DNA from: a virus
Virus record (IMG/VR): IMGVR_UViG_3300032304_000251
Coordinates: 1-23,986 of that record
Length of the DNA: 23,986 nucleotides
Strand: one strand, 5' to 3'
Numbering within the stretch: the first letter of the stretch is position 1; each line of letters opens with the position of its first letter. Of the stretch, positions 2 through 22,274 are shown in pieces. Under the pieces are notes generated by a model. It was not told the DNA's origin and searched no databases. It worked only from the letters and a program-made list of their open reading frames with translations. The translations under genes were made by a program, and so were the position numbers.

Positions 2-1993
2 TTTACGGGATATACTCAGCCTGAAGGTATGTTCTTCAGTAGTGATGGGTATAAATTATTCATTACTGATCTAAATGCAAAAACCTTAGATGAATATAAC
101 CTGTCGATTCCATGGCAAGTTAATACTGCAACATATGTTACTAGTTCACTTGGGCAATTCAGTAACAATGTCACCGGAATCTATATCAAACCTGATGGTA
201 CTAGGTTATATGCTACAGTTGGTAACGATACAACTGCGGGACAAATTCATCAGTATACATTTGAACCATTAACAATTGACGGACATAGAATTTGGAATTC
301 ATCGAATGATGGCTCTGGTTCTGGTCTAGATGCTGATAAGCTTGGAGGATTGACTTCTACTGGATATCAGACGACTGCTGGGCTTTCCGCAAACGTAGCG
401 ACTCTGACGTCGAACAACTCTACATTTGCATTCAGTAAGACTGAAATTAACCTCAATGTCAATAATGCTCTAACATCAAACAATTCTAGCTTCCTAGGTG
501 GTTTAGTTTCTACTGGATATCAGACTACTGCTGGCCTATCAGGGAATGTTGCTACTCTTACAGCAAACAATGCTAATAATCTTCTAGGACGAACATGGGT
601 AGCACCCGGAACGATTGGTTCTACGACTGCTAATACTGGACGATTTACTACACTAGATTCAACTGGCGTGACTACAGTAACTGCGGGAGGCGCAGCGGTT
701 CGTGGGTTCATAGTAGCAAATGGTGCTAGTTATATTGCATTGACTGCAAATATGTCTGCAGGATCATATAACCCACTAGTACTCAATAGTGAAAATTCGT
801 TAATATTCTCTAATGGTACTTCGAATGGTGGATCATTCTTTATCGGACCATGGACAACACGCTCAACTGGAATCAGAGTTGATGGACCAACATCAAATAT
901 TTCACTAATTTCAAATAATGTTACTATACTAGCTAACGTAAATATTGATGCTGGAACATTATATGTAGATGGACTGAATAACCGAGTTGGCATCTCAAAT
1001 ACTAATCCATTACACATACTATCAGTAAATGGTGATGGGTACATTAATGGTAATGTAATCGTCGGTAACACTTCGACAAATACTGTCATTAGTTCTAGTG
1101 GATTATCACTAGCAAATTCAACTTCTAACACTAGACTTTCTATCCCATCGACTGCACAATATTCAGCAACGAATGTATTCCTACATGCTAACGGTTCTTG
1201 GATAGCTCCTAGTGCTTACGCATATACTGCACCTACTATTACAGTTATGGTGAATGATCCTAATGGAGATTCACTCGTTACCGGAAACGCTCAGGCTTAT
1301 ATTCCAATTCCAGCTTCGATCAATAATTATAGCCTAGTGAATGTGCTTGCTACGGTGGTGAATGCATCATCTTCAGGAAATGTATCACTTCAGTTCTACA
1401 ATGTCACGCAAAATAGAAATATTCTGACCACAGAATTAACCATTGACAATAACGAAGTAAGCTCTACGACTTCTGGAATTACTGCAGTAGTCAACTCGGC
1501 TGCATCATCTATATTGACTGGCGATCTAATTTCTATTCAGGTTAACCAAGCGGGTACCGGAGTGAAGGGCTTAATGGTCAATATGACATATCAGACTGTC
1601 ATTACTGCAAGCAGCACCTACACACCAACTATCACGAAATATGTTACCGATCCATTTGGTGATGAATTAATTACTGGTGATGGTCAAGCTTATATTCCTA
1701 TCTCCCCTGACCTAAATGGATTTAAGATTGCTAGTGCCATGGCGACAGTTGCTAATTCATCATCGTCTGGTACACCAACTATACAGATCAGAAATACATC
1801 TACTGGAGTAGATTTACTTACGACACCAATTACGATTGATGCTGGAGAAACTTCAAGTATTACTGCGGCGACTCCTCCAGTAATAAATACTTCTGCTGTT
1901 GCATTAGCAACTGGAAATCTTCTGGCCGTAGATATTGATGTTGCTGGCACTGGAACTAAAGGCCTAATCTTAACTCTAACATTTGGATTATAA
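2..1993 (+). CDS. Tail fibre-like structural protein, 5' end missing
   Basis: The reading frame is open to the left edge, so the gene starts upstream; the first in-window ATG at 29 is internal. The visible part is about 664 residues, rich in Asn, Ser and Thr, with no transmembrane segment. The first ~80 residues carry IKPDGTRLY-type repeats of the kind seen in beta-propeller-like phage surface proteins. Two copies of a GYQTTAGLS-centred repeat follow (nt 356-405 and 509-558). A segment near nt 985-1080 (RVGISNTNPLHILSVNG) matches the pattern common in phage tail-fibre and tailspike shafts. The last ~255 residues are two tandem copies of a ~125-residue beta-rich domain (about nt 1223-1618 and 1619-1990). 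I infer a distal tail fibre or other adhesion protein. The exact fibre role is not determined. Confidence 0.75.
   Translation, partial: FTGYTQPEGMFFSSDGYKLFITDLNAKTLDEYNLSIPWQVNTATYVTSSLGQFSNNVTGIYIKPDGTRLYATVGNDTTAGQIHQYTFEPLTIDGHRIWNSSNDGSGSGLDADKLGGLTSTGYQTTAGLSANVATLTSNNSTFAFSKTEINLNVNNALTSNNSSFLGGLVSTGYQTTAGLSGNVATLTANNANNLLGRTWVAPGTIGSTTANTGRFTTLDSTGVTTVTAGGAAVRGFIVANGASYIALTANMSAGSYNPLVLNSENSLIFSNGTSNGGSFFIGPWTTRSTGIRVDGPTSNISLISNNVTILANVNIDAGTLYVDGLNNRVGISNTNPLHILSVNGDGYINGNVIVGNTSTNTVISSSGLSLANSTSNTRLSIPSTAQYSATNVFLHANGSWIAPSAYAYTAPTITVMVNDPNGDSLVTGNAQAYIPIPASINNYSLVNVLATVVNASSSGNVSLQFYNVTQNRNILTTELTIDNNEVSSTTSGITAVVNSAASSILTGDLISIQVNQAGTGVKGLMVNMTYQTVITASSTYTPTITKYVTDPFGDELITGDGQAYIPISPDLNGFKIASAMATVANSSSSGTPTIQIRNTSTGVDLLTTPITIDAGETSSITAATPPVINTSAVALATGNLLAVDIDVAGTGTKGLILTLTFGL
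356..558 (+). repeat. Direct repeat pair inside the fibre gene
   Basis: Nt 356-405 and 509-558 are near-identical over about 50 bases, sharing the exact stretch TCTACTGGATATCAGAC at both starts. Both encode STGYQTTAGLS followed by NVATLT. This is an in-frame duplication in the fibre shaft region. Confidence 0.7.
1223..1990 (+). repeat. Tandem duplicated ~125-residue domain at the fibre C-terminus
   Basis: Copy 1 spans about nt 1223-1618 and copy 2 about nt 1619-1990. Matching landmarks recur in the same order: YTAPTIT/YTPTIT, DPNGDSLVTG/DPFGDELITG, QAYIPI in both, NASSSGN/NSSSSGT, LTTELTID/LTTPITID, and AGTGVKGLMV/AGTGTKGLIL. The copies have diverged, so this is an old duplication of a beta-rich, probably surface-exposed domain. 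Confidence 0.8.
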
Positions 1994-1994
1994 T

Positions 1995-2450
1995 ATGAAT
2001 ATACAACGAAGAAGAGTAAATCAGCAACCGGAACTTACGGTTGATTATACAATCACTAATATTGATGAGTTCGGTATAGTCGAGGCTGATCCTATCAGAA
2101 TAATCTATTCAGATGGTAGTGTACTTACTACCATTCCCGGTGATGAAGATTTTCCTGATGCAGTATATGATCCCGATGCAGTAAATGATGAATATAACAG
2201 CCTAGTCTATAAGGACAGGTTATATTTGGATGTCTGCATTGAACTTGAGAAAATTATTCCAGATGCAGGAAATTTATATCGATTAGATGTAGATGGGATT
2301 GTGATCATTGGAATACCATCAATATATTTGGAACATGCCCAAACTATCATAACAATGCTTACTGAGAAGTTTACTGATCAATTAGAGTGGTATGAATTGG
2401 GTATTGTATGGGCTGATGCTCCAGTACATGAGGTAGAACAAGATGGCTAG
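1995..2450 (+). CDS. Hypothetical 151-residue protein between fibre genes
   Basis: I do not recognise this protein. It starts at ATG 1995, two bases after the fibre stop; a TTG at 1983 in the same frame is less likely because it lies inside the fibre gene. The product is acidic, with many Asp and Glu and no membrane segment or signal peptide. An N-terminal part (ITNIDEFGIVEADPIRIIYSD) looks beta-rich, and a C-terminal half around LEHAQTIITMLTEKF looks helical. Its last eight bases overlap the next gene's start (ATGGCTAG). Position between two fibre-type genes suggests a tail-fibre accessory protein or chaperone, but this is inference from context only. Confidence 0.7.
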   Translation: MNIQRRRVNQQPELTVDYTITNIDEFGIVEADPIRIIYSDGSVLTTIPGDEDFPDAVYDPDAVNDEYNSLVYKDRLYLDVCIELEKIIPDAGNLYRLDVDGIVIIGIPSIYLEHAQTIITMLTEKFTDQLEWYELGIVWADAPVHEVEQDG

Positions 2451-3624
2451 ATCAATATTAGCTTCAGCCTTTACTCAAACTATAACTGCAAATTCGTTTG
2501 TCGGATTTGGCGGTCCTTCTTACGCTGAAGCAACAGAATCACTTACAAATCTTTATATCTATAATAAAGCAAAGTTATATGGATTCTATATCAACCCATC
2601 TTCGACTGCTGATGGAAGATATTATACTATAAGGAAGAATGGTGCAGACTCTACACTTAAAATAGGGCCATGGAATACAGTAAACGGCACTAACTCAGTA
2701 TCTAATGGTATAAGCATTACTATCAATAGTGGTGATTATATCAATATGTCATATAATGCTGCTGCTAACTCTGCATTTTCATCCAGAGTTATTCTTAAGC
2801 CATATGGAAGACATTTCTTTATTTTGTCATCAACACCACAATCTGCACCAAGTTCTTTTGGTGTTGGCACCAGATATACGCAGTTGGGTGGAGCGATGGG
2901 GGTCACTACAGCAGAGGATAGAACTCACTTTAGAGTAAAGGTGCCGGGTACGTTAAAAAATATGCAGTTGAAGGTGACAACAAATACCACAGGCACTGCT
3001 AACGTATTCACGAGAATTAGTAACACTCTAGGTAATTTGAATATATTTGTAGGTGCTGGTCAAACTGGACACTTTTCAGATATCTCCAGAAGTGATGCGG
3101 TATCCGCAAATTCAACCATTAACATTAGAGCAGTTATAGCTACGGCAGCAATAACCTTTTCACAGTTTTCAGCACATTTCGAACCTACTAATGTTGGTTC
3201 AAAGAAACAAGAATTATGTGTCAGCGCAGCAGCTACTCTTACACCTTCATTAACTCCATCATATACTCCAATAGTAGGTGGTATTAGCGGAAGCAGTTCT
3301 GAATCGTCCAGATCATTAACATTTGGTTATCCAGTAAAACTAAACAATCTTAGAATATATGCTTATACAAATACTTGCAATACTACGTTACGTGTTACTA
3401 CAAGAGTTAATTCTACTAATACGGTGTTATATACTGATATAGCTGCTGGAGCCACGGGGTGGTTTGAAAATAACGTTGATGGTATTGTTGTAAATCCGAA
3501 TGATACGGTTTCATTTAGACTAGAATCATTATCTGCACCAACAGGAACTGTTCAGGTAAGTAGTATTGGTTTAACTGCTGAAGATTTGTCTCCACCAGAC
3601 TACCCTAAAATCTCTATGCAATAA
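2443..3624 (+). CDS. Virion surface / tail fibre-associated protein with three similar beta domains
   Basis: 393 residues, rich in Thr, Ser, Asn and Ala, with no catalytic motif. It appears to hold three related beta-sandwich-like units of about 120 residues. Each has a strand pattern of the type L-x-G/N-x-x-I/L-x-x, seen at LYGFYINPSST, LKNMQLKVTTNTT and LNNLRIYAYTNTC, followed by a repeated pattern of strands ending near an aromatic residue. A GAGGT Shine-Dalgarno sequence at 2430-2434 sits 8 nt before ATG 2443, supporting the start and the 8-nt overlap with the preceding gene. Low-complexity beta architecture next to fibre genes suggests a receptor-binding or fibre-tip role; this is inference. 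Confidence 0.65.
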   Translation: MARSILASAFTQTITANSFVGFGGPSYAEATESLTNLYIYNKAKLYGFYINPSSTADGRYYTIRKNGADSTLKIGPWNTVNGTNSVSNGISITINSGDYINMSYNAAANSAFSSRVILKPYGRHFFILSSTPQSAPSSFGVGTRYTQLGGAMGVTTAEDRTHFRVKVPGTLKNMQLKVTTNTTGTANVFTRISNTLGNLNIFVGAGQTGHFSDISRSDAVSANSTINIRAVIATAAITFSQFSAHFEPTNVGSKKQELCVSAAATLTPSLTPSYTPIVGGISGSSSESSRSLTFGYPVKLNNLRIYAYTNTCNTTLRVTTRVNSTNTVLYTDIAAGATGWFENNVDGIVVNPNDTVSFRLESLSAPTGTVQVSSIGLTAEDLSPPDYPKISMQ

Positions 3625-3628
3625 ATAA
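3621..3628 (+). promoter_or_regulatory. T4-type late promoter candidate before gene 13
   Basis: ATAAATAA lies within AATAAATAAT, overlaps the preceding stop codon and sits 17 nt before ATG 3646. The same AATAAATAAT string precedes genes 22 and 23. It matches the core of the T4 late promoter (TATAAATA), recognised by gp55-RNA polymerase. Confidence 0.6.
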
Positions 3629-3645
3629 TTAAAAGGAGTTTCACT

Positions 3646-4389
3646 ATGGCAGTACCTACGAACCGAGAAGAATTTAAAGCATACGTATTGAGAAAATTGG
3701 GTGCGCCAGTTATCAATATTGATGTATCAGATGATCAAGTGGATGATCGCCTAGATGAGTCATTGAAGTACTACGCCGACTATCATTTCGATGCAAGTGA
3801 AAAGATTTATTATAAACATCAGATTACTGAACAAGACAAGATCAACCAGTATATCACACTTCCAGAGAATGTTATGGGGGTTGTGAATCTATTTCCCACA
3901 TCCAACATTGGTATTAACTCTAATGACATGTTCAGTATCCAGTATCAAATTGCACTGAACGACCTCTATACTCTAACTAATACTTCTCTTGTACCATACT
4001 ACATGATGAGAGAGAATTTGGCATTAATTGAAGAGTTATTGGTTGGTCAGAAGCCTATTCGATACTCAAGACATAAGGATAGACTATTCATTGACACCAA
4101 GTGGAGTCAATTTGTCGTCGGCAATTACATCCTCGTTGAGTGCTATGAAGTTATTGATCCAGAAGTCTGGACAGACGTTTGGTCCGACCGATGGCTTCAA
4201 AATTATACAGCAGCTAAAGTTAAATATCAATGGGGAAGTAATATTACGAAGTTCACTTCTATGTCACTCCCCGGTGGGGTTCAGTTCAATGGCGAGATGA
4301 TTCTTAAGGATGCCGAGCAGGAAATTCTTAAGATGGAACAAGAGATGCTGAGTTCTTATTCTCTACCGGTTATGGATATGTACGGTTAG
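3646..4389 (+). CDS. 13: Neck (head completion) protein gp13
   Basis: 247 residues, compared with about 309 in T4. gp13 joins gp14 in the neck that closes the DNA-filled head and receives the tail. The N-terminal pattern REEFKAYVLRKLGAPVINI, then VSDDQVDDRLDESLKYYADYH (split here, residues about 27-47), is characteristic of the cyanophage-like gp13 family. The C-terminal LPGGVQFNGEMILKDAEQEI is also typical. Gene 14 follows directly, as in T4. The start is well supported by AAGGAGT at 3633-3639, 6 nt before ATG, and by the late-promoter-like sequence upstream. No oddity apart from the shorter length. Confidence 0.9.
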   Translation: MAVPTNREEFKAYVLRKLGAPVINIDVSDDQVDDRLDESLKYYADYHFDASEKIYYKHQITEQDKINQYITLPENVMGVVNLFPTSNIGINSNDMFSIQYQIALNDLYTLTNTSLVPYYMMRENLALIEELLVGQKPIRYSRHKDRLFIDTKWSQFVVGNYILVECYEVIDPEVWTDVWSDRWLQNYTAAKVKYQWGSNITKFTSMSLPGGVQFNGEMILKDAEQEILKMEQEMLSSYSLPVMDMYG

Positions 4390-4482: not shown

Positions 4483-5204
4483 TGACAAATATTTACTTTA
4501 ACAACTTTGAGCATCCCGGTCAACAAGATTTGATATCCTCACTTATCGAGGAGTCAATCGCGATCTATGGTCATCATGTCTGGTACTGCCCAAGGTCTAC
4601 TGTAAAATTGGACGAAATTTACGGAGAGGATATCCTCTCTGAGTATAATGATGCGCTGATGATGGACATGTACATTCGTAGTTATGATAGTTATGAAGGC
4701 GATGGTACATTCCTATCAAAGTTCAATATCGAGATTAGAGACCAGACTACCTTCACAATATCCAGAAGAACTTTCGGTAAGAAGATCGGTGAATATACCG
4801 AATTGACAAGACCCAGAGAAGGTGATCTAATCTATTCTAAGATGTTGAAACGTCTTATGGTAATCAAGTATGTCAATAATACTGCAATCTTCTATCAAAT
4901 GGGTGACCTACAGGTCTGGGACATAGTCTGTGAAGTGTTTGAATATTCTAACGAGAAGATCAATACTGGTGTTCCGGAAATTGACAGCATCGAGAGAGAT
5001 TACTCATTCAACGAAGAGGGTCAAGGCGTGATGACTGCAGACGGATATTTGCTTACAGACGAAGACGAACATTCATTCAATCTTGGTCAGTTTGATCATG
5101 ATGAACAACTTGGAGATGTATTCTCTGATAACAAAGAATTTAAAGAGGATGTGGTCGAATTGGATTGGAATCCAGATGATCCATTCTCGGAGGCATTACC
5201 ATAA
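4482..5204 (+). CDS. 14: Neck protein gp14
   Basis: 240 residues, near the 256 of T4 gp14. It acts with gp13 at the portal vertex to complete the head and form the tail-joining site. The N-terminal half resembles T4 gp14 as I know it: a segment like LISSLIEESIAIYGHHVWY-PR, then DEIYGEDILSEY and a DSYEGDG-FLSKF-IEI segment followed by FTISRRTF. The C-terminus is strongly acidic and ends in DPFSEALP. The start overlaps the previous frame as TAATG; AGGA at 4470-4473 lies 8 nt upstream. The stop overlaps the gene 16 start by one base. T4 places gene 15 next, but here gene 16 follows immediately. Confidence 0.92.
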   Translation: MTNIYFNNFEHPGQQDLISSLIEESIAIYGHHVWYCPRSTVKLDEIYGEDILSEYNDALMMDMYIRSYDSYEGDGTFLSKFNIEIRDQTTFTISRRTFGKKIGEYTELTRPREGDLIYSKMLKRLMVIKYVNNTAIFYQMGDLQVWDIVCEVFEYSNEKINTGVPEIDSIERDYSFNEEGQGVMTADGYLLTDEDEHSFNLGQFDHDEQLGDVFSDNKEFKEDVVELDWNPDDPFSEALP

Positions 5205-5599
5205 TGAAAGACGCGATTTACGAAACATTAGACTTGACACCGATTGTGTATGAAGGTGAAACTTATAGCAAGCAAGAAGGCGACAATATTACTCAAGAGG
5301 AGAAGGATGCAGAACGTGCTAGAGACCTTCTGATGGATGTTGTGGAAGTCGGACAGAAGGCTATGAAAGACCTTTCAGAATTAGCTTTCCAGTCTCAGGA
5401 CCCTAAGACGTATACTGCACTTAAGGATATGCTGGACAGCATGACCGACGTCAGTAATAAGATTCTCGATCTTCAGATCAAGAGAGATAAAATTTTTAAC
5501 AAGCCTGATGGTCCAGATAAGGTAGTGAATAACAACACGCTAATCATGACTACAGAACAATTAAACAAAGTATTAGATGGGATCAAGAACAATGGCTAA
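5204..5599 (+). CDS. 16: Terminase small subunit gp16
   Basis: 131 residues, compared with about 164 in T4. gp16 oligomerises, recognises concatemeric phage DNA and regulates the gp17 ATPase/nuclease during packaging initiation. The sequence is mostly helical and charged: an N-terminal segment with VYEGETY, a central helix pair (ERARDLLMDVVEVGQKAM and YTALKDMLDSMTDVSNKILDL) that fits the coiled-coil oligomerisation core, and a C-terminal LIMTTEQLNKVL motif typical of cyanophage-like gp16. GGAGG at 5189-5193 lies 10 nt before ATG. Its start and stop both overlap neighbours. It is separated from gene 17 by one inserted gene, unlike T4 where 16 and 17 are adjacent. Confidence 0.85.
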   Translation: MKDAIYETLDLTPIVYEGETYSKQEGDNITQEEKDAERARDLLMDVVEVGQKAMKDLSELAFQSQDPKTYTALKDMLDSMTDVSNKILDLQIKRDKIFNKPDGPDKVVNNNTLIMTTEQLNKVLDGIKNNG

Positions 5600-6422
5600 A
5601 ATTATAGATATTTTATTCTCCGAAGCTACCTATAAGGGCAAGACGGTTCCACTGAATAAGCCTATGGCGGGTGATGTCAAGAAGTCAAAGGTCTATGTCG
5701 ATCCGGATGGCGATGGTAAAGCACAGAAGGTGAACTTCGGTGACAAGACCCTTAGCATAAAGAAAAATATCCCAGATCGTAAGAAATCCTATTGCGCTAG
5801 GTCGGGTGGACAGGGTAATCTTAATGATAAGACTTCGGCTAATTATTGGTCGAGGAAGGCATGGAATTGCGAAGAACTGGAATTGGATGAAGCTATGAGA
5901 TCAAGCATTAGCAAAAGAAACACTAAGAAATTAATTTCGAAGTGGCATGATGATCAGCAGGGGCAGACTTATGGAGACCAACCATATTCGTCTCACCCAA
6001 AGTCAGTAATGAATATTGGTAAGAAGGTGTTTGGCTCTAAGCGATTCGGAGAAGAGACCAAGAAGGTAGCTCTTCTACATGACGTACTGGAGGATACTCC
6101 AGTGACGCCTGAACAACTCTCTAAGCGTGGGTTCAGTGACGACGTGATTGGCGCTGTCAAGCTCCTATCCAAGGACAAGTCTCTATCATACGAAGACAAT
6201 ATCAGAAATATTGCTAATGGAACTACTGCTGCACACAAGCATGCTCAGATGGTAAAATACAGTGACAATATGTCAAATTATTTGGCCATGCCTAAGCCTG
6301 AATGGAGCAAGGATAGGGTCGAGAAGCAAAAGGGAAAATACATGGATTCCATGAGAGTTCTCGGCAAAGTTCTTGGGGTTAACCATCATGAAAGACTAAA
6401 TCCAAAGTGGAAATCTGAGTAA
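5592..6422 (+). CDS. SpoT/MESH1-like HD phosphohydrolase fused to a phage virion-type N-terminal module
   Basis: 276 residues from ATG 5592, chosen for the 8-nt ATGGCTAA overlap with gene 16; an in-frame ATG at 5577 is possible. Residues ~22-93 form a basic module with KKSKVYVDPDGDGK, KVNFGD, IPDRKKSYCARSG and KTSANYWSRKAW. I associate this pattern with a DUF5872-like module in phage virion proteins. Residues ~115-235 match the hydrolase domain of RelA/SpoT homologues: GQTYGDQPYSSHP (H135), LLHDVLEDT (H163, D164, E167, D168) and KYSDNMSN (D225, N229). These are the metal-binding and catalytic positions for Mn-dependent removal of pyrophosphate from (p)ppGpp. No synthetase domain is present, so it resembles a small alarmone hydrolase; another nucleotide substrate is possible. 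It lies between the two terminase genes, coupled to both. Confidence 0.8.
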   Translation: MAKIIDILFSEATYKGKTVPLNKPMAGDVKKSKVYVDPDGDGKAQKVNFGDKTLSIKKNIPDRKKSYCARSGGQGNLNDKTSANYWSRKAWNCEELELDEAMRSSISKRNTKKLISKWHDDQQGQTYGDQPYSSHPKSVMNIGKKVFGSKRFGEETKKVALLHDVLEDTPVTPEQLSKRGFSDDVIGAVKLLSKDKSLSYEDNIRNIANGTTAAHKHAQMVKYSDNMSNYLAMPKPEWSKDRVEKQKGKYMDSMRVLGKVLGVNHHERLNPKWKSE

Positions 6423-8059
6423 TGTCAGAACAGTATGAAGTTGAACCTAGAAGAGGTTATAACGGTAACCCACTACTAAAAAAGCCCAGAAACAAAATTA
6501 TCTGGACTAAAGAGCGTATGGAAGAGTTTGCCAAGTGTAAATTTGACCCTATCTACTTTGCACAAAATTATATTAAGATCGTTCACGTAGATCATGGTCT
6601 AATTTCACTGGAGCTTTATGAATACCAAAAGGAAATCATAAACAAAATCTCAAACAATAGACTCTGCACAGTAGTTACGTCTAGACAGGCTGGTAAGACA
6701 ACCACTGCGGCTGCTATTATTCTACATTACATTATATTTAATGATAATAAGACGGTTGGCCTTCTCGCCAACAAAGGCGACGCGGCTAGAGAAATTCTCG
6801 AAAGAATTAAAATTGCATATGAGGCACTACCAGATTGGCTTCAGCAAGGAGTTCTCATCTGGAATAAAGGTGACATAAAGTTAGAGAATGGCTGTAAAGT
6901 AATAGCTGCATCTACTACATCTACATCCATTCGTGGTAAATCTGTGTCATTCCTATATATCGACGAAGCTGCCTTCGTTGAAAATTGGGACGAATTCTTT
7001 TCTTCTGTATACCCAACTATCTCATCTGGTGATACCACAAAGATGCTATTTACGTCTACTCCAAACGGACTGAACCACTTCTACAAGACTTGTGAGGGTG
7101 CCAGAGCGGGGACTAATGGATATGAATTCGTTGAAGTACCTTGGCATAGAGTACCACGAAGGGATGAAAAGTGGAAGCAGGAAACTCTTGCTGCCATGGA
7201 TTTTGATTACGAAAGATTCGAACAGGAATTCAACTGTGGATTCCAAGGGTCATCTGGTACACTCATTTCAGGTGCTACACTTAAGACTCTCGTAGCTAAG
7301 AAGCCACTCTCCTCAAAGGATGGGCTTACTCAATATTATCTACCAGAAACAGAACACCGATATGTCATCACTGCTGACGTCTCTCGTGGTAAAGGACTTG
7401 ATTATTCAGCATATCAGGTAATTGATGTCACGTCAATGCCATATCAACAAGTTTGCACCTATAGAAGCAATCTTATTACCCCTAACGACTATGCTTCTGT
7501 CATTCACTATATATCAAAGACATACAACGATGCAACTATTCTTGTCGAAATTAATGACATTGGTGGTCAAGTAGCCGATACGCTCTATAACGAGTTCGAA
7601 TCGGATTCTCTCATCTGCACAGAAAATGGTGGCGCAAGAGGAAGAAGAATCTCTAGTGGATTCACTAAAACTTCTGAGCGTGGAGTGAGAACTACCAAAA
7701 GTGTCAAGTCGGTTGGGTGTTCGATTCTAAAGCTTCTTGTAGAGCAGCAACAATTAATTATTAACGATCACCAAACGATCTTTGAGCTATCAAGATTCTC
7801 ACGTAAGGGGACTTCATATGAGGCAGAGCCGGGTTGTAACGATGACTTGGTCATGTGTCTCGTATTATTTGCGTGGATGTCAGATCAGCAATATTTCCGT
7901 GAACTTACAGACATAAATACTCTTATGAAATTGAGAGAGAAGACTGATGACGACATCGAAAATGATGTTATTCCATTCGGTTATATGGTTGATGGTCGAG
8001 AAGAACACAATGAAGAATTTGATTACCAGAAACCAGAATTCAAAGGTCTGTTCTTTTAG
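6422..8059 (+). CDS. 17: Terminase large subunit gp17 (packaging ATPase and nuclease)
   Basis: 545 residues, shorter than the 610 of T4. It is the motor that cuts concatemers and pumps DNA through portal gp20. In the ATPase domain I see Walker A SRQAGKTT (about residues 87-94), Walker B FLYIDEA (177-183, with D181 and E182) and the coupling motif LFTSTPNG (209-216). In the RNase H-fold nuclease domain, catalytic acids sit in ITADVSRGKG (D319), ILVEINDIGG (E376) and GCNDDLVM (Asp pair near residue 470). The start overlaps the HD-hydrolase stop as TAATG. A 69-nt gap with a late promoter follows. All key residues seem intact. Confidence 0.97.
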   Translation: MSEQYEVEPRRGYNGNPLLKKPRNKIIWTKERMEEFAKCKFDPIYFAQNYIKIVHVDHGLISLELYEYQKEIINKISNNRLCTVVTSRQAGKTTTAAAIILHYIIFNDNKTVGLLANKGDAAREILERIKIAYEALPDWLQQGVLIWNKGDIKLENGCKVIAASTTSTSIRGKSVSFLYIDEAAFVENWDEFFSSVYPTISSGDTTKMLFTSTPNGLNHFYKTCEGARAGTNGYEFVEVPWHRVPRRDEKWKQETLAAMDFDYERFEQEFNCGFQGSSGTLISGATLKTLVAKKPLSSKDGLTQYYLPETEHRYVITADVSRGKGLDYSAYQVIDVTSMPYQQVCTYRSNLITPNDYASVIHYISKTYNDATILVEINDIGGQVADTLYNEFESDSLICTENGGARGRRISSGFTKTSERGVRTTKSVKSVGCSILKLLVEQQQLIINDHQTIFELSRFSRKGTSYEAEPGCNDDLVMCLVLFAWMSDQQYFRELTDINTLMKLREKTDDDIENDVIPFGYMVDGREEHNEEFDYQKPEFKGLFF

Positions 8060-12623: not shown

Positions 12624-12905
12624 ATGTCAATTACCGCAGACCTTATCAACTACGCAATCAATAAAAATCCCATCGAATTCGAGGATGCCTTCAATGACAT
12701 TCTTATGCAGAAGGCTGCGAATGCAGTGTCTGAACTTAGGCAAGAAGTTGCTTCAAATGTTTACGATGATGAACCGGAAGACGATTTTGATGACGTGACT
12801 GACGATTTTGATGACGAACTGGAAGATTTAGACTTAGATTTAGACTTAGATTTAGACGCTGATCTTGACGATCTAGAAGGAGAATTCGATGACGAAACCG
12901 ATTAA
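12624..12905 (+). CDS. 67: Acidic prohead core protein gp67-like
   Basis: 93 residues, compared with 80 in T4. It sits at the T4 position after gene 20. In T4, gp67 is a small core protein needed for correct prohead shape and degraded by gp21. The N-terminal ~45 residues are an amphipathic helix region (LINYAINKNPIEFEDAFNDI, MQKAANAVSELRQEV), as in cyanophage-like core proteins. The rest is almost entirely Asp, Glu and Leu, with an LDLDLDLD run, matching the very acidic tail of T4 gp67. The tail is built from short tandem repeats. The gene's last 17 nt overlap the next gene, whose Shine-Dalgarno sequence lies inside this coding region. The assignment rests on position, composition and N-terminal similarity. 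Confidence 0.8.
   Translation: MSITADLINYAINKNPIEFEDAFNDILMQKAANAVSELRQEVASNVYDDEPEDDFDDVTDDFDDELEDLDLDLDLDLDADLDDLEGEFDDETD
12780..12857 (+). repeat. Short tandem repeats in the acidic tail of gene 67
   Basis: The 15-base unit GACGATTTTGATGAC occurs at 12780-12794 and 12801-12815. The 12-base unit GATTTAGACTTA occurs at 12825-12836 and 12837-12848 with a partial copy at 12849-12857. All are in frame and encode Asp-rich sequence, so copy number could change without a frameshift. Confidence 0.85.
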
Positions 12906-14250
12906 TTATTTTTATGAGGTCTACGCGCCTAAGGCTAAGGATGAACAGCGATTTGTCGATAAGCATGTCGTGATTAAACATAAAGATCGCAACGGTAATG
13001 ATGATGATCTCTTTAATGCAAAGAACATCAAGACTATTAAGCGCGACAAAGAAGGTCATGGATACGACTCTGGTAAAGACGAGAAGGTCTATGAAGATGT
13101 TGAAAATATCAATGAAATTACTGCTCACGAGAGGGTACTGGCACATCCTGCAGTACAAAATGTAGATAATGGCGGAAAGGGTGATTATTTTGTAAATCTT
13201 AAGTCACCCTATCACTGGTCTGGACAACAGGCTTTTGGAGTCGAGAGTCCAAGAGAAGCATTAAGACTTTTGAAAGATACGCGCATTGGTGTTCCGGGAG
13301 TAGACTTTGAAGAAGCTTATAACAAGGATGCAGTTGACAAGTCTATTAAGTCTTCACGTCAGAAGATCGGCGGAAAAGAAGCCAAGATGATTCATGCTCT
13401 ACTTAAGGGTAGAGACAGAAATAAAGAAGAAACTAAAAGAACATTTCCTAATGTAAAACACTTCACTCAAGATGGTCATCCAGATTGGAAGAAGCATGGA
13501 GTAGAAGAGGAATTTGATATTGACGAAGAAAATCTTAACGAATTAAGTCCTCAAACGTATAGAAACGCAGCAGACAAACGTTTGGATCAATATGATTCAT
13601 TAAGACAGCATGTCTCCGATAACAGAAATAAATTAGGTGGGAAAACTCGCGAAAAATATGATCAAGCTATTGACACATTGAGACAAAAAGCCAACAAATT
13701 AGCTGGAAAAGCAAAGTCTAGAGAAAGAGAAGAAACGATAAAAAATGTTCCTAATAAATTAGGAATTGGTGGTTCGATGGGTAAGAAATTGGGGAATCTC
13801 GATAAATCGTATTCGACTGCATCAAGATTTAATAAAAATGTTTACGAAAGAGCACTAGCAAATTTTGTTCCAGAAATTAATGATCAAGAGCAACTTTCAG
13901 ATGCAGAACGTCTAATCTCTCTACTCGACTCGACATTATCTGAAAATAATATTCATACACTCTTAGGACTGTTTGAATCACTTAGTGAAGATAACAGAAT
14001 CAAGATGCTAATGTTAGCAGAAGATCAAGATGGAATCAATGAACTTCTAGATTTTGCGATTTCTCTTAAAGAGCGGGCGACAGAAGAAGATTTACAAGAT
14101 CATGAACCTAGAAAAGTTCAAGGTGTTTATGGCATGAAGTCTAAACAATTCGTTAAGAAGTTCAAGAATCAAATTGCTCAAGATAAATATTTTGATCATC
14201 CTGACCGAGAGGGTCAGTACGAAATTCACCATGTTCAAAGGGATAACTAA
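12889..14250 (+). CDS. Multi-module head-associated protein at the gp68 position
   Basis: 453 residues, far larger than T4 gp68 (141), at the gp68 position between the core gene and protease gp21. AAGGAG at 12877-12882 lies 6 nt before ATG 12889 inside gene 67, so the 17-nt overlap is convincing. Residues ~25-70 (HVVIKHKDRNGNDDDLF, HGYDSGKDEKVYE) resemble a module I associate with internal proteins of T4-like phages. Residues ~213-275 (LNELSPQTYRNAADKRLDQY) form a basic, helical segment of a type also seen there. Residues ~335-400 are acidic helices. Residues ~410-450 (MKSKQFVKKFKNQIAQDKYF, ending YEIHHVQ) look like a further recurring phage module. I infer an internal head or scaffold-associated protein; no enzyme motif is visible. 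Whether it replaces gp68 is unproven. Confidence 0.7.
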   Translation: MTKPINYFYEVYAPKAKDEQRFVDKHVVIKHKDRNGNDDDLFNAKNIKTIKRDKEGHGYDSGKDEKVYEDVENINEITAHERVLAHPAVQNVDNGGKGDYFVNLKSPYHWSGQQAFGVESPREALRLLKDTRIGVPGVDFEEAYNKDAVDKSIKSSRQKIGGKEAKMIHALLKGRDRNKEETKRTFPNVKHFTQDGHPDWKKHGVEEEFDIDEENLNELSPQTYRNAADKRLDQYDSLRQHVSDNRNKLGGKTREKYDQAIDTLRQKANKLAGKAKSREREETIKNVPNKLGIGGSMGKKLGNLDKSYSTASRFNKNVYERALANFVPEINDQEQLSDAERLISLLDSTLSENNIHTLLGLFESLSEDNRIKMLMLAEDQDGINELLDFAISLKERATEEDLQDHEPRKVQGVYGMKSKQFVKKFKNQIAQDKYFDHPDREGQYEIHHVQRDN

Positions 14251-14654: not shown

Positions 14655-15323
14655 ATGAAACTGATTACTGAACTGAACGAAAGTGTAGAGAATATTACTG
14701 AAGCTACTGAAGATGGAGCTAAGAAGTTCTATATTGAGGGTATCTTCCTACAGTCTGCTATCAAAAATAGAAATGGTAGAATTTATCCAGAAGAAATTAT
14801 GGATAACGAAGTCGGTAGATATATCAAGGAATCCGTAGACTCTAATAAGGCACTCGGTGAACTTGGGCATCCTAACGGACCACAGATCAATCTCGATAAG
14901 GTTTCCCATCGAATTGTATCTCTGCGTAAAGAAGGTACCAACTGGATTGGTAAAGCACTAATCACTGGTACACCTAACGGAAATATTGCTAAGGGCCTGA
15001 TGGAGTCAGGAACTAAGCTAGGGGTATCTTCTAGAGCTATGGGTACTCTGAAGCCAAATAAACAAGGAATCAACGAAGTCCAAGCAGACTTCAGACTAGC
15101 TACTGCTGCTGATATTGTTGCTGACCCATCGGCACCAGATGCTTGGGTGAACGGAATTATGGAATCATGCGATTGGTTTTATGATGAGAAGTACGGTTGG
15201 AAGATGATTGACTTGGCAGAACAAGCTAAAGCAGAAATCGAACAGGCTACGAGAGCAAGAAAGCTAAAAGAGTCTAAACTGAAGCTTTTTGAAGATTACA
15301 TGAGTAAGATTTCAAAATTTTAA
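14655..15323 (+). CDS. 21: Prohead core protein protease gp21
   Basis: 222 residues, compared with 212 in T4. This serine protease matures the prohead by cutting scaffold and capsid proteins after an (L/I)-x-E motif. Family features are FYIEGIFLQSAIKNRNGRIY, GELGHPNGP with the probable catalytic His (H72), and KLGVSSRAMG with the probable catalytic Ser (S125 or S126). DFRLATAADIVADPSAPDAW follows. An I-T-E/A site at residues 14-17 fits self-processing of a short propeptide. GAGGAG at 14641-14646 lies 8 nt before ATG. There is a 3-nt gap after the preceding gene and no internal promoter. Gene 22 follows, as in T4. Confidence 0.93.
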   Translation: MKLITELNESVENITEATEDGAKKFYIEGIFLQSAIKNRNGRIYPEEIMDNEVGRYIKESVDSNKALGELGHPNGPQINLDKVSHRIVSLRKEGTNWIGKALITGTPNGNIAKGLMESGTKLGVSSRAMGTLKPNKQGINEVQADFRLATAADIVADPSAPDAWVNGIMESCDWFYDEKYGWKMIDLAEQAKAEIEQATRARKLKESKLKLFEDYMSKISKF

Positions 15324-15360: not shown

Positions 15361-16371
15361 ATGTCAAAGGTAGATACAATGAACGAATATTTAACTGAAA
15401 CTGCAGCAGGAGAAACACTGAGACCCGGTGCTGGTTCTGGTGGTTCGATGTCACGATCAGAGATGTTATCAACATTCACTGATCTCTTAGCTCAGCTAGG
15501 TAAGGAAGATTTGTCTGACCTGTTCAATAGAACACTATCACAAATCGGTCACGAAGCAGACCTTATTCCATCTAACGCATCAGCTAAGAATGCGGCAACA
15601 ATTACAACTAAGGAAGATATGGATGACATCTTCTCAGGTGACGAGCTTACAGAAGACCTGAAAGAACGTGCATCTGTCATCTTCGAAGCTGCTCTTAATA
15701 CTCGACTGAATGTTGAGATTGCTAAGCTTGAAGAAGAATATTCTGAGTTAGTATCTACACTAGAAGAAGAATACGAAGAAAAGCTTGAAGAGCGTTTGAC
15801 TGAATCTCTAGATGAAATGTGTGAAAAGCTTGACCTCTATCTAGACCATATCGTTGAAAACTGGCTTGAAGAAAATAGAATCGAGATGACCACTTCTATT
15901 AGAACTGAGATTGCAGAATCTTGCCTAGAACAAGTTAAGAGAGTATTCGAAGACCACTATATTACTATTCCAGAAGAGAAGACAGATATTCTTGGCGAGA
16001 TGAAGAATACTATCGAAGACCTCAAGGACAAGCTTAACGAAGCACTTGATAAGAAGCTGGAACTAGAGCAAGTCATCGAAGAAGCTACCAAGGAATCAAC
16101 TATCGATGAATTTAGTGAAGGTCTAGCTAAGACTCAAGTAGAAAAGCTAAAGCAACTATCTGAAGGTCTAGAATTCACTGACGTAGATTCATACAGAAGA
16201 AAAGTACAGATTATCAAGGAAAATTACTTTGATAAGAAGTCTCCTGCGCCAAAGACAACTGGTATGATTACTGAGGAAATCGATGGGTATGATGACTCAC
16301 TTGAAGAGCAAGTAGTTGTTCCCGGTGTAATGGGTAAATATGCTGCAGCAATCTCAAGAACTGCAAAATAA
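15361..16371 (+). CDS. 22: Prohead scaffold (core) protein gp22
   Basis: 336 residues, longer than T4 gp22 (269). It forms the internal scaffold around which gp23 assembles and is then degraded by gp21. The protein is highly charged and helical. Residues ~110-170 and ~215-250 are Glu/Lys/Leu-rich predicted coiled coils (for example LEEEYSELVSTLEEEYEEKL). The C-terminus carries VVVPGVMGKYAAAISRTAK, a motif I associate with T4-like scaffold C-termini. An L-T-E/T sequence at residues 11-14 fits a gp21 cleavage site near the N-terminus. AAGGAGT lies about 7 nt before ATG. Location between genes 21 and 23 matches T4. Confidence 0.9.
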   Translation: MSKVDTMNEYLTETAAGETLRPGAGSGGSMSRSEMLSTFTDLLAQLGKEDLSDLFNRTLSQIGHEADLIPSNASAKNAATITTKEDMDDIFSGDELTEDLKERASVIFEAALNTRLNVEIAKLEEEYSELVSTLEEEYEEKLEERLTESLDEMCEKLDLYLDHIVENWLEENRIEMTTSIRTEIAESCLEQVKRVFEDHYITIPEEKTDILGEMKNTIEDLKDKLNEALDKKLELEQVIEEATKESTIDEFSEGLAKTQVEKLKQLSEGLEFTDVDSYRRKVQIIKENYFDKKSPAPKTTGMITEEIDGYDDSLEEQVVVPGVMGKYAAAISRTAK

Positions 16372-16422: not shown

Positions 16423-17781
16423 ATGTCAAGTTTAGTAGAACAAATTACAGAAAAATGGGGTCCAATTCTAGACCACGCTGATCTGCCTAGCATTACCGAT
16501 AAGAGAAAGAGAGCAGACACTGCTATCGTTCTTGAGAATACAGAACGTGCACTCAATGAAGGTCGTTCAATCTCTGCCGGTCAATCCTTCCTAGGTGAAG
16601 CGTCCCCAACAAACTCAACTGGCTCTCATGTCGATAACTTCGATCCAGTACTTATTTCACTAGTTAGACGTTCTATGCCTAACCTAGTAGCATATGATAT
16701 CTGTGGTGTCCAGCCTATGACTGGACCAACCGGACTTATCTTTGCTATGAGATCACGTTACGAGTCACAGACAGGAACTGAAACTTTCTACAACGAAGTG
16801 AACACTGGTTTCTCTGCTCGTGGTGGGTCTAATACCGCTGCTGCTGGTGCTGGTTATGCTGCTGCTACTTATCTAGGTGGTGCTGCAAGCAACATCGGAA
16901 CTGCACCCGGTGTATCTAATAACGCTGGTGCTGACACCTATAACTTTGCTGGTGGTGTTGTTACATCTCTAGCAGAAGCACTAGGTTCTAACGCAACTGC
17001 AGTGTTCCCACAAATGGCCTTCAGCATTGAAAAGGTTTCAGTAGAAGCTAAGTCACGTGCTCTAAAGGCTGAATACTCACTAGAACTAGCACAAGACCTA
17101 AAGGCTATCCATGGTCTAGATGCCGAGACTGAACTTTCTAATATTCTTCAGTCTGAAATCCTAGCAGAAATCAATCGTGAAGTTCTTAGAACTGTCATTA
17201 TTACTGCTAAGCAAGGTGCAAGCTCTGGTACAACTACAGCAGGTCGCTTCGATCTAGACACTGACTCTAACGGTCGTTGGTCAGTAGAAAAGTTCAAGGG
17301 TCTAATGTCACAAATCGAGTTCGAATGTAACAAGATTTCAAAAGATACCAGACGTGGTAAGGGTAATATGGTAATCTGTTCTTCAGATGTTGCCTCTGCT
17401 CTTATGATGGCCGGTGTTCTAGATTATACTCCTGCTCTTAACTCAAATCAACTAAATGTTGACGATACAGGTAATACTTTTGCTGGTGTTCTAAATGGTA
17501 GACTTCGTGTTTACATTGACCCATATGCAGGTTCAAACTTTATCGTTGTAGGTTATAAGGGTTCTTCAGTATTTGATGCTGGTCTATTCTACTGCCCATA
17601 TGTACCACTACAAATGGTACGTGCAGTTGATCCAGATACCTTTGCTCCTAAGATCGGGTTCAAGACTCGTTACGGAATGGTAGCAAATCCATTCGCTGGT
17701 GGTGCAACTGCTAGCCTTGGTGTTCTAACTCAAGACTCCAACGTTTATTACAGAAGAGTACTAGTCGATAATTTGATGTAG
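16423..17781 (+). CDS. 23: Major capsid protein gp23
   Basis: 452 residues, compared with 521 in T4. It forms the hexamers of the icosahedral shell. Conserved stretches include VDNFDPVLISLVRRSMPNLV, DICGVQPMTGPTGLIFAMRS, then AFSIEKVSVEAKSRALKAEY and YSLELAQDLKAIHGLDAETE. Near the C-terminus are YIDPYAGSNFIVVGYKGSS and FYCPYVPLQMVRAVDP. An L-G-E/A sequence at residues 57-60 sits where T4 gp23 is cut by gp21 (after residue 65), so the mature protein would be about 393 residues. No gene 24 (vertex protein) follows in this window. The gene has its own late-promoter-like site and a strong downstream terminator, as expected for the most abundant virion protein. Confidence 0.97.
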   Translation: MSSLVEQITEKWGPILDHADLPSITDKRKRADTAIVLENTERALNEGRSISAGQSFLGEASPTNSTGSHVDNFDPVLISLVRRSMPNLVAYDICGVQPMTGPTGLIFAMRSRYESQTGTETFYNEVNTGFSARGGSNTAAAGAGYAAATYLGGAASNIGTAPGVSNNAGADTYNFAGGVVTSLAEALGSNATAVFPQMAFSIEKVSVEAKSRALKAEYSLELAQDLKAIHGLDAETELSNILQSEILAEINREVLRTVIITAKQGASSGTTTAGRFDLDTDSNGRWSVEKFKGLMSQIEFECNKISKDTRRGKGNMVICSSDVASALMMAGVLDYTPALNSNQLNVDDTGNTFAGVLNGRLRVYIDPYAGSNFIVVGYKGSSVFDAGLFYCPYVPLQMVRAVDPDTFAPKIGFKTRYGMVANPFAGGATASLGVLTQDSNVYYRRVLVDNLM

Positions 17782-21605: not shown

Positions 21606-22274
21606 ATGGCATTTCATGTAGTTTATAAAACCATAAATAAAGTTAATAATAAGTACTATATTGGCGTACATAGTACGACCAACATTAATGATAATTATAT
21701 GGGGTCTGGAACTGCATTGAAACTAGCAATCACAAAATATGGTCCTGAGAATTTCATTAAAGAAGTCATCGAAATATTTGACTCTAGAGAAGAAGCTCTA
21801 TCTCTAGAGTCAAAATTAGTTACTGAAGAATTGGTATTGGATAAGGGATGCTATAACTTAACATTTGGTGGTGGCTCTCCACCAGTAACCAGTGGACGAG
21901 AACATCCACTATATGGATGTATTAGGCCAGATTCCAAATTAAGGATGCTGAAATCTAATCCAGCTAGACTTCCGCAGGTGAAGACTAAGCATGCGGAAAC
22001 TGTCATGGTTAGAGATTTAGACGGTAATATTCTCAAGATTAAACGAGATGATTGGAATCCCAACACTCATATTCAGATTAATAAGGGAATGATTACTGTT
22101 AAAGATTCTGATGGAAATTCTCACTATCTCCCTAAAGATGATCCTAGAGTCATGAATGGTGAATTGGTACATATATCGAAGGGGCTGGTGTTAACTTGTC
22201 CACATTGTAATAAGGTTGGAGGAAGTACCATGAAGCGATGGCACTTCAATAATTGTAAGGATAAAAATGACTAA
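21606..22274 (+). CDS. GIY-YIG homing endonuclease, Seg-like
   Basis: 222 residues. The catalytic domain shows the GIY-YIG variant VVY (5-7) and YIG (18-20), followed by NYMGSGTALKLAITKYG and a probable catalytic Glu in LSLESKLV (E69), matching free-standing Seg enzymes of T4-like phages. Two DNA-binding-type repeats follow: VRDLDGNILKIKRDDW (about 135-150) and VKDSDGNSHYLPKDDP (about 165-180). A C-terminal zinc-finger-like motif CPHC-x11-H-x3-C spans 198-217. Such enzymes cut related genomes lacking the gene and spread by repair. It lies 13 nt after the small gene and its last eight bases overlap gene 47. All expected residues seem present, so it is probably active. Confidence 0.9.
   Translation: MAFHVVYKTINKVNNKYYIGVHSTTNINDNYMGSGTALKLAITKYGPENFIKEVIEIFDSREEALSLESKLVTEELVLDKGCYNLTFGGGSPPVTSGREHPLYGCIRPDSKLRMLKSNPARLPQVKTKHAETVMVRDLDGNILKIKRDDWNPNTHIQINKGMITVKDSDGNSHYLPKDDPRVMNGELVHISKGLVLTCPHCNKVGGSTMKRWHFNNCKDKND
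22257..22261 (+). promoter_or_regulatory. Ribosome binding site of gene 47 inside the homing endonuclease gene
   Basis: AAGGA lies 5 nt before ATG 22267 and inside the last codons of the homing endonuclease, so the mobile gene supplies the translation signal of gene 47. Confidence 0.65.

Follow-up and report, generated by a model that had tools for sequence, protein, structure and literature searches.

A SAH/MESH1-type hydrolase domain behind a capsid-targeting-like leader: a candidate head-delivered enzyme of an environmental T4-type phage

A gene of an environmental T4-type phage joins an alarmone-hydrolase-type HD domain to sequences which mark head-packed proteins in related phages, so that injection of the enzyme along with the phage DNA is probable. 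The window, i.e. the whole stretch of DNA analysed here, is a 23,986-base IMG/VR virus record whose late genes stand in T4-type order and include homologues of gp21, gp22 and gp23. The gene itself (5592..6422, on the plus strand like all features below) was delimited by its open reading frame and by Pfam and PHROG matches; it encodes 276 amino acids arranged as leader, module and HD hydrolase. Directly visible are the HD fold and its catalytic residues, the shuffling of cassettes, the protease-site-like borders and a protease gene. On balance we favour the reading that the protein would be a gp21-processed internal-head cargo of the T4 type which brings an alarmone or tRNA-pyrophosphate hydrolase into the cell at injection. 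The parts are known from SAH enzymes, T4 internal proteins and the virion enzymes of cyanophages. Their combination and the rule for cassette boundaries described below appear to be new within the literature searchable here, in which we found no account of an alarmone hydrolase delivered from the head.

The open reading frame is located between the genes of the terminase small subunit gp16 (5204..5599) and the terminase large subunit gp17 (6422..8059), both assigned by PHROGs, and overlaps them by 8 bp and 1 bp, respectively. Starting at 5577 instead would lengthen the protein by five residues; with the start at 5592, the leader equals in length that of several relatives. The first-pass annotation had stressed the insertion between the terminase genes. 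The position is real, and gp16 and gp17 directly adjoin each other in T4, as they do in 71 of the 77 close relatives. By itself, however, it is unremarkable: this gap has been described as a hot spot of insertion in cyanophages (PMC3037559), and 6 of the 77 relatives carry other inserts there. The position was therefore dropped as a hint of a packaging role. Among the gap genes of loci L124, L125, L135 and L191-L193, one GIY-YIG-like and one SNase-like ORF were recognised by eye.

The late head-gene neighbourhood would fit expression during head assembly, although it is no proof of it. It comprises a gp21-type head maturation protease (14655..15323; phrog_207, 2.7e-72), which is the candidate processing enzyme, a gp22-type scaffold protein (15361..16371; PHROGs) and a gp23-type major capsid protein (16423..17781; PHROGs). 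The latter carries a candidate gp21 site by site pattern, SFLGE/ASPT, where the slash marks the putative cleavage position here and below. Between an acidic gp67-like ORF and gp21, a 453-aa ORF (12889-14250) resembles another multi-module head protein; it has no Pfam match and a weak match to phrog_26626, and its borders read FEE/A and LNE. A further ORF (21606-22274) looks GIY-YIG endonuclease-like by eye.

The C-terminal half, residues 101-276 (5892..6419), is an HD hydrolase domain of the SAH/MESH1 type, and this family assignment is firm. It matches phrog_990, 'metal-dependent phosphohydrolase', at 1.9e-28. Solved SAH/MESH1 chains, to which it is about 22-27% identical, are found by phmmer at 4e-7 and by profile search down to 2e-31. 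The domain model (pLDDT 90.7) has its best solved fold match in the (p)ppApp hydrolase 7smg (Z 19.2, 139 residues, 1.9 Å), and further matches in the Pseudomonas SAH 6yvc (Z 19.0) and human MESH1 3nr1 (Z 18.1). The alignment locates H135 of the HP motif (5994..5996), H163-D164 and E167-D168 of the HD and ED motifs (6078..6095, seen by profile as well) and K222, D225 and N229 of the third conserved motif (6255..6278). All eight residues are present and invariant among 29 aligned sequences. Furthermore, the domain keeps the glutamate that is replaced by glutamine in entry 6z3o, a mutant of the Pseudomonas SAH. Pfam and PHROG scans of the 276-aa protein returned HD and module families only and found no synthetase domain. 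The initial call of a SpoT/MESH1-type hydrolase lacking a synthetase is thereby backed by sequence, catalytic residues and fold, including the structural overlay that had been suggested for it (Z 18.1-19.2), and sequence and model together support a predicted functional SAH-type hydrolase. A recent cellular donor is not indicated: the best cellular relatives show ~40% identity, confined to short stretches.

Residues 12-100 (5625..5891) form a basic module with a conserved core of about residues 12-92. The profile search which the first-pass annotation had proposed for both halves matches the module to phrog_7595 (1.6e-10); the Pfam match, to DUF6321, is weak (0.066). In IMG/VR loci the module occurs alone (83-97 aa), at the C-terminus or within proteins of up to 1357 aa. 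It is also present in the cultured T4-like Kyanoviridae HTVC008M, Melnitz and C48C1, in several pelagiphage podoviruses and in Roseobacter phages, of which CRP-6 (L289 838-1524) has it joined to a phage protease of the XkdF family (PF14550, 7e-18). The module had been described as a virion-type sequence of residues ~22-93. Its end at about 93 holds, but it starts at residue 12. The T4-type leaders and protease-site borders and the CRP-6 protease fusion speak indirectly for the virion connection; even so, the module is a general shuffled cassette and not an established virion protein. The most telling feature, prohead-protease-like borders together with an HD cassette that is shuffled among multi-module proteins, had escaped the first-pass annotation. 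Kinship with T4 IPI was rejected (profile comparison probability 0.2%), and the fold model of the module was too weak for use (pLDDT 63). Module and HD domain were aligned separately; a joint alignment put the halves out of register.

The sequence directly in front of the module is strongly patterned. In T4-like phages, the P1 residue is glutamate in 56 of 56 distinct contexts and the full pattern [LIVF]xE/A is found in 53 of them. Another count gave [LIVF]xE before the module in 49 of 51 distinct instances; in random windows its frequency is 7.7%. This pattern resembles the site of the T4 gp21 prohead protease, whose specificity is L/I-x-E (PMC9026906). N-terminal modules of T4-like phages follow leaders such as MLSFKEFIAE/A and MITFKEFLLNE/A, and the T4 internal proteins start in a similar way: IPII and IPIII with MKTYQEFIAE/A, IPI with MKTFKEF...ITE/A. 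The first ten residues of IPIII, the CTS, suffice for head packaging; targeting is determined mainly by residues 4 and 7, processing by residues 8 and 10 (PMC9026906). Cleavage of Alt takes place at ITE-6 and LTE-619 (PMC5694885).

CTS-like N-termini were counted on 60 of 3226 ORFs of the plus strand and 7 of 3931 of the minus strand, compared with 5.05 expected from shuffling; the rate is not that of an average genome, because the loci were fetched for the module. Many of these leaders sit on proteins other than module proteins. In locus L076 (997-4261), five ORFs have CTS-like starts (MTTFKQYLSEA, MRSFKDYITEA, MISFKEYLEEA, MISFKQYLQEA and MISFKEYLEEE), and one of the five encodes a DUF6267 protein (3e-100). 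Podo- and siphophages provide a natural control: their modules begin directly with MAKYKGRTVKLNKP and have neither leader nor E/A, so the module itself does not demand the E/A. Within T4-like phages, the E/A could partly be inherited along with the module. The brevity of [LIV]xE counts against the cleavage reading. Two other modules follow the rule less cleanly (DUF5824 25% and CWxGY 34%, against about 9% with the same window definition), and we therefore do not claim it for every module.

In place of a T4-type capsid-targeting leader, the 276-aa protein begins with MAKIIDILFSE (residues 1-11; 5592..5624), identified by comparison with the leaders of relatives; the leader region reads MAKIIDILFSEA. 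Position and length are as in relatives and L8 is present. The aromatic residues which relatives have at positions 4 and 7 are missing here, both positions being isoleucine, and P3 is phenylalanine. For these reasons we call the leader CTS-like and not a proven CTS. Exactly two [LIVF]xE[AGS] sites exist in the ORF, FSE/A after residue 11 and LDE/A after residue 100, and both coincide with domain borders; the two border sites arise together in 0.0007 of shuffles (0.07%). The first is F-x-E, against the L/I-x-E of gp21. The second, L-D-E/A after E100 (5883..5894), is by its pattern a candidate prohead-protease site in the linker between module and HD domain.

The HD domain travels in comparable company elsewhere. 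HD domains 53-71% identical to it are found in sixteen IMG/VR loci (L082-L097), all within multi-module proteins except in L096, which is cut off by the contig end. In a tree, the multi-module HDs and that of the window form one group (98/96). An [LIV]xE lies just upstream of the HD in all eight other distinct close relatives as well as in the window, where LDE/A stands behind a short extra spacer; the sequences directly before the HD read LAE/A, LDE/Y, VNE/Y, IEE/Y and LEE/Y. The partners of the HD cassette, in several architectures, include DUF6267, cytidylyltransferase-like (NMNAT-like) and dCMP-deaminase domains. Fusion with the cytidylyltransferase-like domain is seen in L083, L091 and L092, and the L083 polypeptide (1166-4177) unites a dCMP-deaminase domain (4e-13) with DUF6267, cytidylyltransferase and HD. 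Two proteins, from L001 and L003, share both ends and differ in the middle: behind the same LAE/A, the former has the HD and the latter the module of the window, which argues that the two cassettes move as units. The HD polyproteins of L092 and L082 have an N-terminus without an obvious CTS. In most HD polyproteins of L083-L097, the C-terminus is a conserved ...DYLEEK tail, perhaps serving as a second signal for targeting or processing. In L084 (3757-6516), a twin-arginine-like motif (SRRGFLRGAGAAAAL) is found inside a multi-module protein beside the HD cassette. MPTase, DarA-N and DdrB-ParB were not among the Pfam-scan matches, although such domains may still occur.

These architectures bear on the strongest competing explanation, in which a late cytosolic alarmone hydrolase stays unpackaged and lowers (p)ppGpp or reverses toxSAS damage in the producing cell, the module being a mere fusion partner, for example for nucleic acid binding. 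Many phage SAH-like HD proteins are indeed stand-alone and leaderless, plain intracellular expression of the phage SAH PaSpo-SSU5 is enough to neutralise FaRel2 (PMC11559606), and the leader described above is an imperfect CTS. A hydrolase made late would also make sense, since newly synthesised capsid protein activates CapRel (PMC9712102). However, it is the more distant HDs (<38% identical) that stand alone, whereas the closest clade resides in multi-module proteins with protease-site-like borders. We consider an unpackaged enzyme rather unlikely.

The most likely action of the HD domain, judged by its family, is the removal of a 3′-pyrophosphate. The domain could act on (p)ppGpp, on (p)ppApp or on tRNA ends that toxSAS toxins have pyrophosphorylated, a modification which PaSpo-SSU5 reverses (PMC11559606). 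Homology does not set the target, because SAHs are substrate-promiscuous (PMC9765508). A packaged enzyme might instead act on NADPH, PAPS-like nucleotides or another 3′- or 2′-phosphorylated metabolite and serve metabolism, not anti-defence. SAH/MESH1 enzymes hydrolyse NADPH besides alarmones (PMC9765508), and the fusions of the relatives' HD cassette to cytidylyltransferase/NMNAT-like and deaminase domains point to nucleotide or NAD metabolism. Yet alarmone hydrolases give the best matches in both fold and profile, and XccSAH uses alarmones far more efficiently than NADPH (PMC9765508), which makes a non-alarmone substrate improbable. The earlier suggestion that the enzyme protects packaging nucleotides found no result in its favour. 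Lastly, the multi-module proteins look like fast-shuffling mosaics of many small modules of unknown function, and the protein might be a relic, inactive or structural, whose shuffled cassette is retained for head assembly with no enzymatic role. This is very improbable, given that the catalytic residues do not vary within the clade or in distant homologues.

For the favoured head-delivered hydrolase, we infer the following course of late expression, packaging, cleavage, injection and substrate use. The protein would be synthesised late from within the gp16-gp17 operon; its leader would carry it into the prohead core, and the basic module would perhaps help to hold it to the core or to DNA. The gp21-type protease of the phage would then cut behind E11 and E100 and release the HD domain, which would remain in the head and enter the next host together with the DNA. 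There it would remove the 3′-pyrophosphate from (p)ppGpp, (p)ppApp or toxSAS-modified tRNA ends. This action would precede phage gene expression, as is the case for T4 IPI against GmrSD.

Phage alarmone hydrolases are known, and T4 is known to inject head-packed anti-restriction proteins. If the proposal is true, phages can disarm nucleotide or tRNA-pyrophosphate alarms ahead of any phage gene expression. A wider and more tentative idea is that environmental T4-like phages may possess a kit of interchangeable enzyme cassettes, carried in polyproteins, bounded by protease sites, packed into the head, cut and injected. One of them would be an alarmone/tRNA-pyrophosphate eraser that counters the stringent response or toxSAS at time zero. 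The boundary rule, an [LIV]xE leader or linker directly before a cassette, is a simple and testable recogniser of injected enzymes, and it can be applied to many unknown genes of environmental T4-like phages. Related cassettes in the cultured phages HTVC008M, Melnitz, C48C1 and S-SM1 make it testable there.

Compared with known systems, the HD half shares the fold, the H, HD, ED and K-D-N motifs and the synthetase-free state with SAH/MESH1 enzymes (6yvc, 7smg, 3nr1) and with PaSpo-SSU5. Unlike these, the phage ORF adds a leader and a shuffled module, and its HD belongs to its own clade of multi-module proteins. With T4 IPI, IPII, IPIII and Alt it has in common a short leader ending in E/A, candidate sites of the prohead-protease type and an encoded gp21-type protease; IPI acts against the GmrSD restriction enzyme (PMC3012670). 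It differs from them in its alarmone-hydrolase-type cargo, in the absence of aromatic residues at leader positions 4 and 7 and in its packaging, which is a prediction, while its relatives, unlike the T4 proteins, have several cassettes in tandem.

Enzymes behind CTS-like leaders in cyanophage virions are another parallel. The T4-GC190 cytidylyltransferase was detected by virion proteomics of S-SM1 (PMC3037559), and its sequence starts with MKKFSAFLNE/A. The virion proteomes of S-CBWM1, S-SZBM1 and S-SCSM1 are reported to contain NMNAT-like proteins, with a caveat on co-purification from the authors themselves (PMC10665884); the virion-annotated protein of S-SCSM1 starts with MKSFLQFLKE/A. The S-SM1 and S-SCSM1 data indicate that at least one partner enzyme family of the HD cassette is virion-associated and leader-bearing. 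In contrast to these proteins and that of S-SZBM1, which were detected in virions, the 276-aa protein is a different enzyme and a predicted virion component.

Polyvalent proteins are likewise multi-domain and fast-shuffling and have been proposed to be delivered with DNA (PMC5512222); several domains per polypeptide, shuffled between relatives, are a trait found here as well. The alarmone-related domains described for them are RelA/SpoT synthetases, and their processing is ascribed to peptidase domains of their own; the term 'HD domain' is absent from the text of that paper (PMC5512222). Finally, MuF polymorphic toxins with a (p)ppApp synthetase and Aph1 immunity hydrolases (PMC12226406) share with our protein a head association, predicted in its case, and alarmone chemistry. 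The MuF head protein makes (p)ppApp, whereas the cargo proposed here would destroy such nucleotides.
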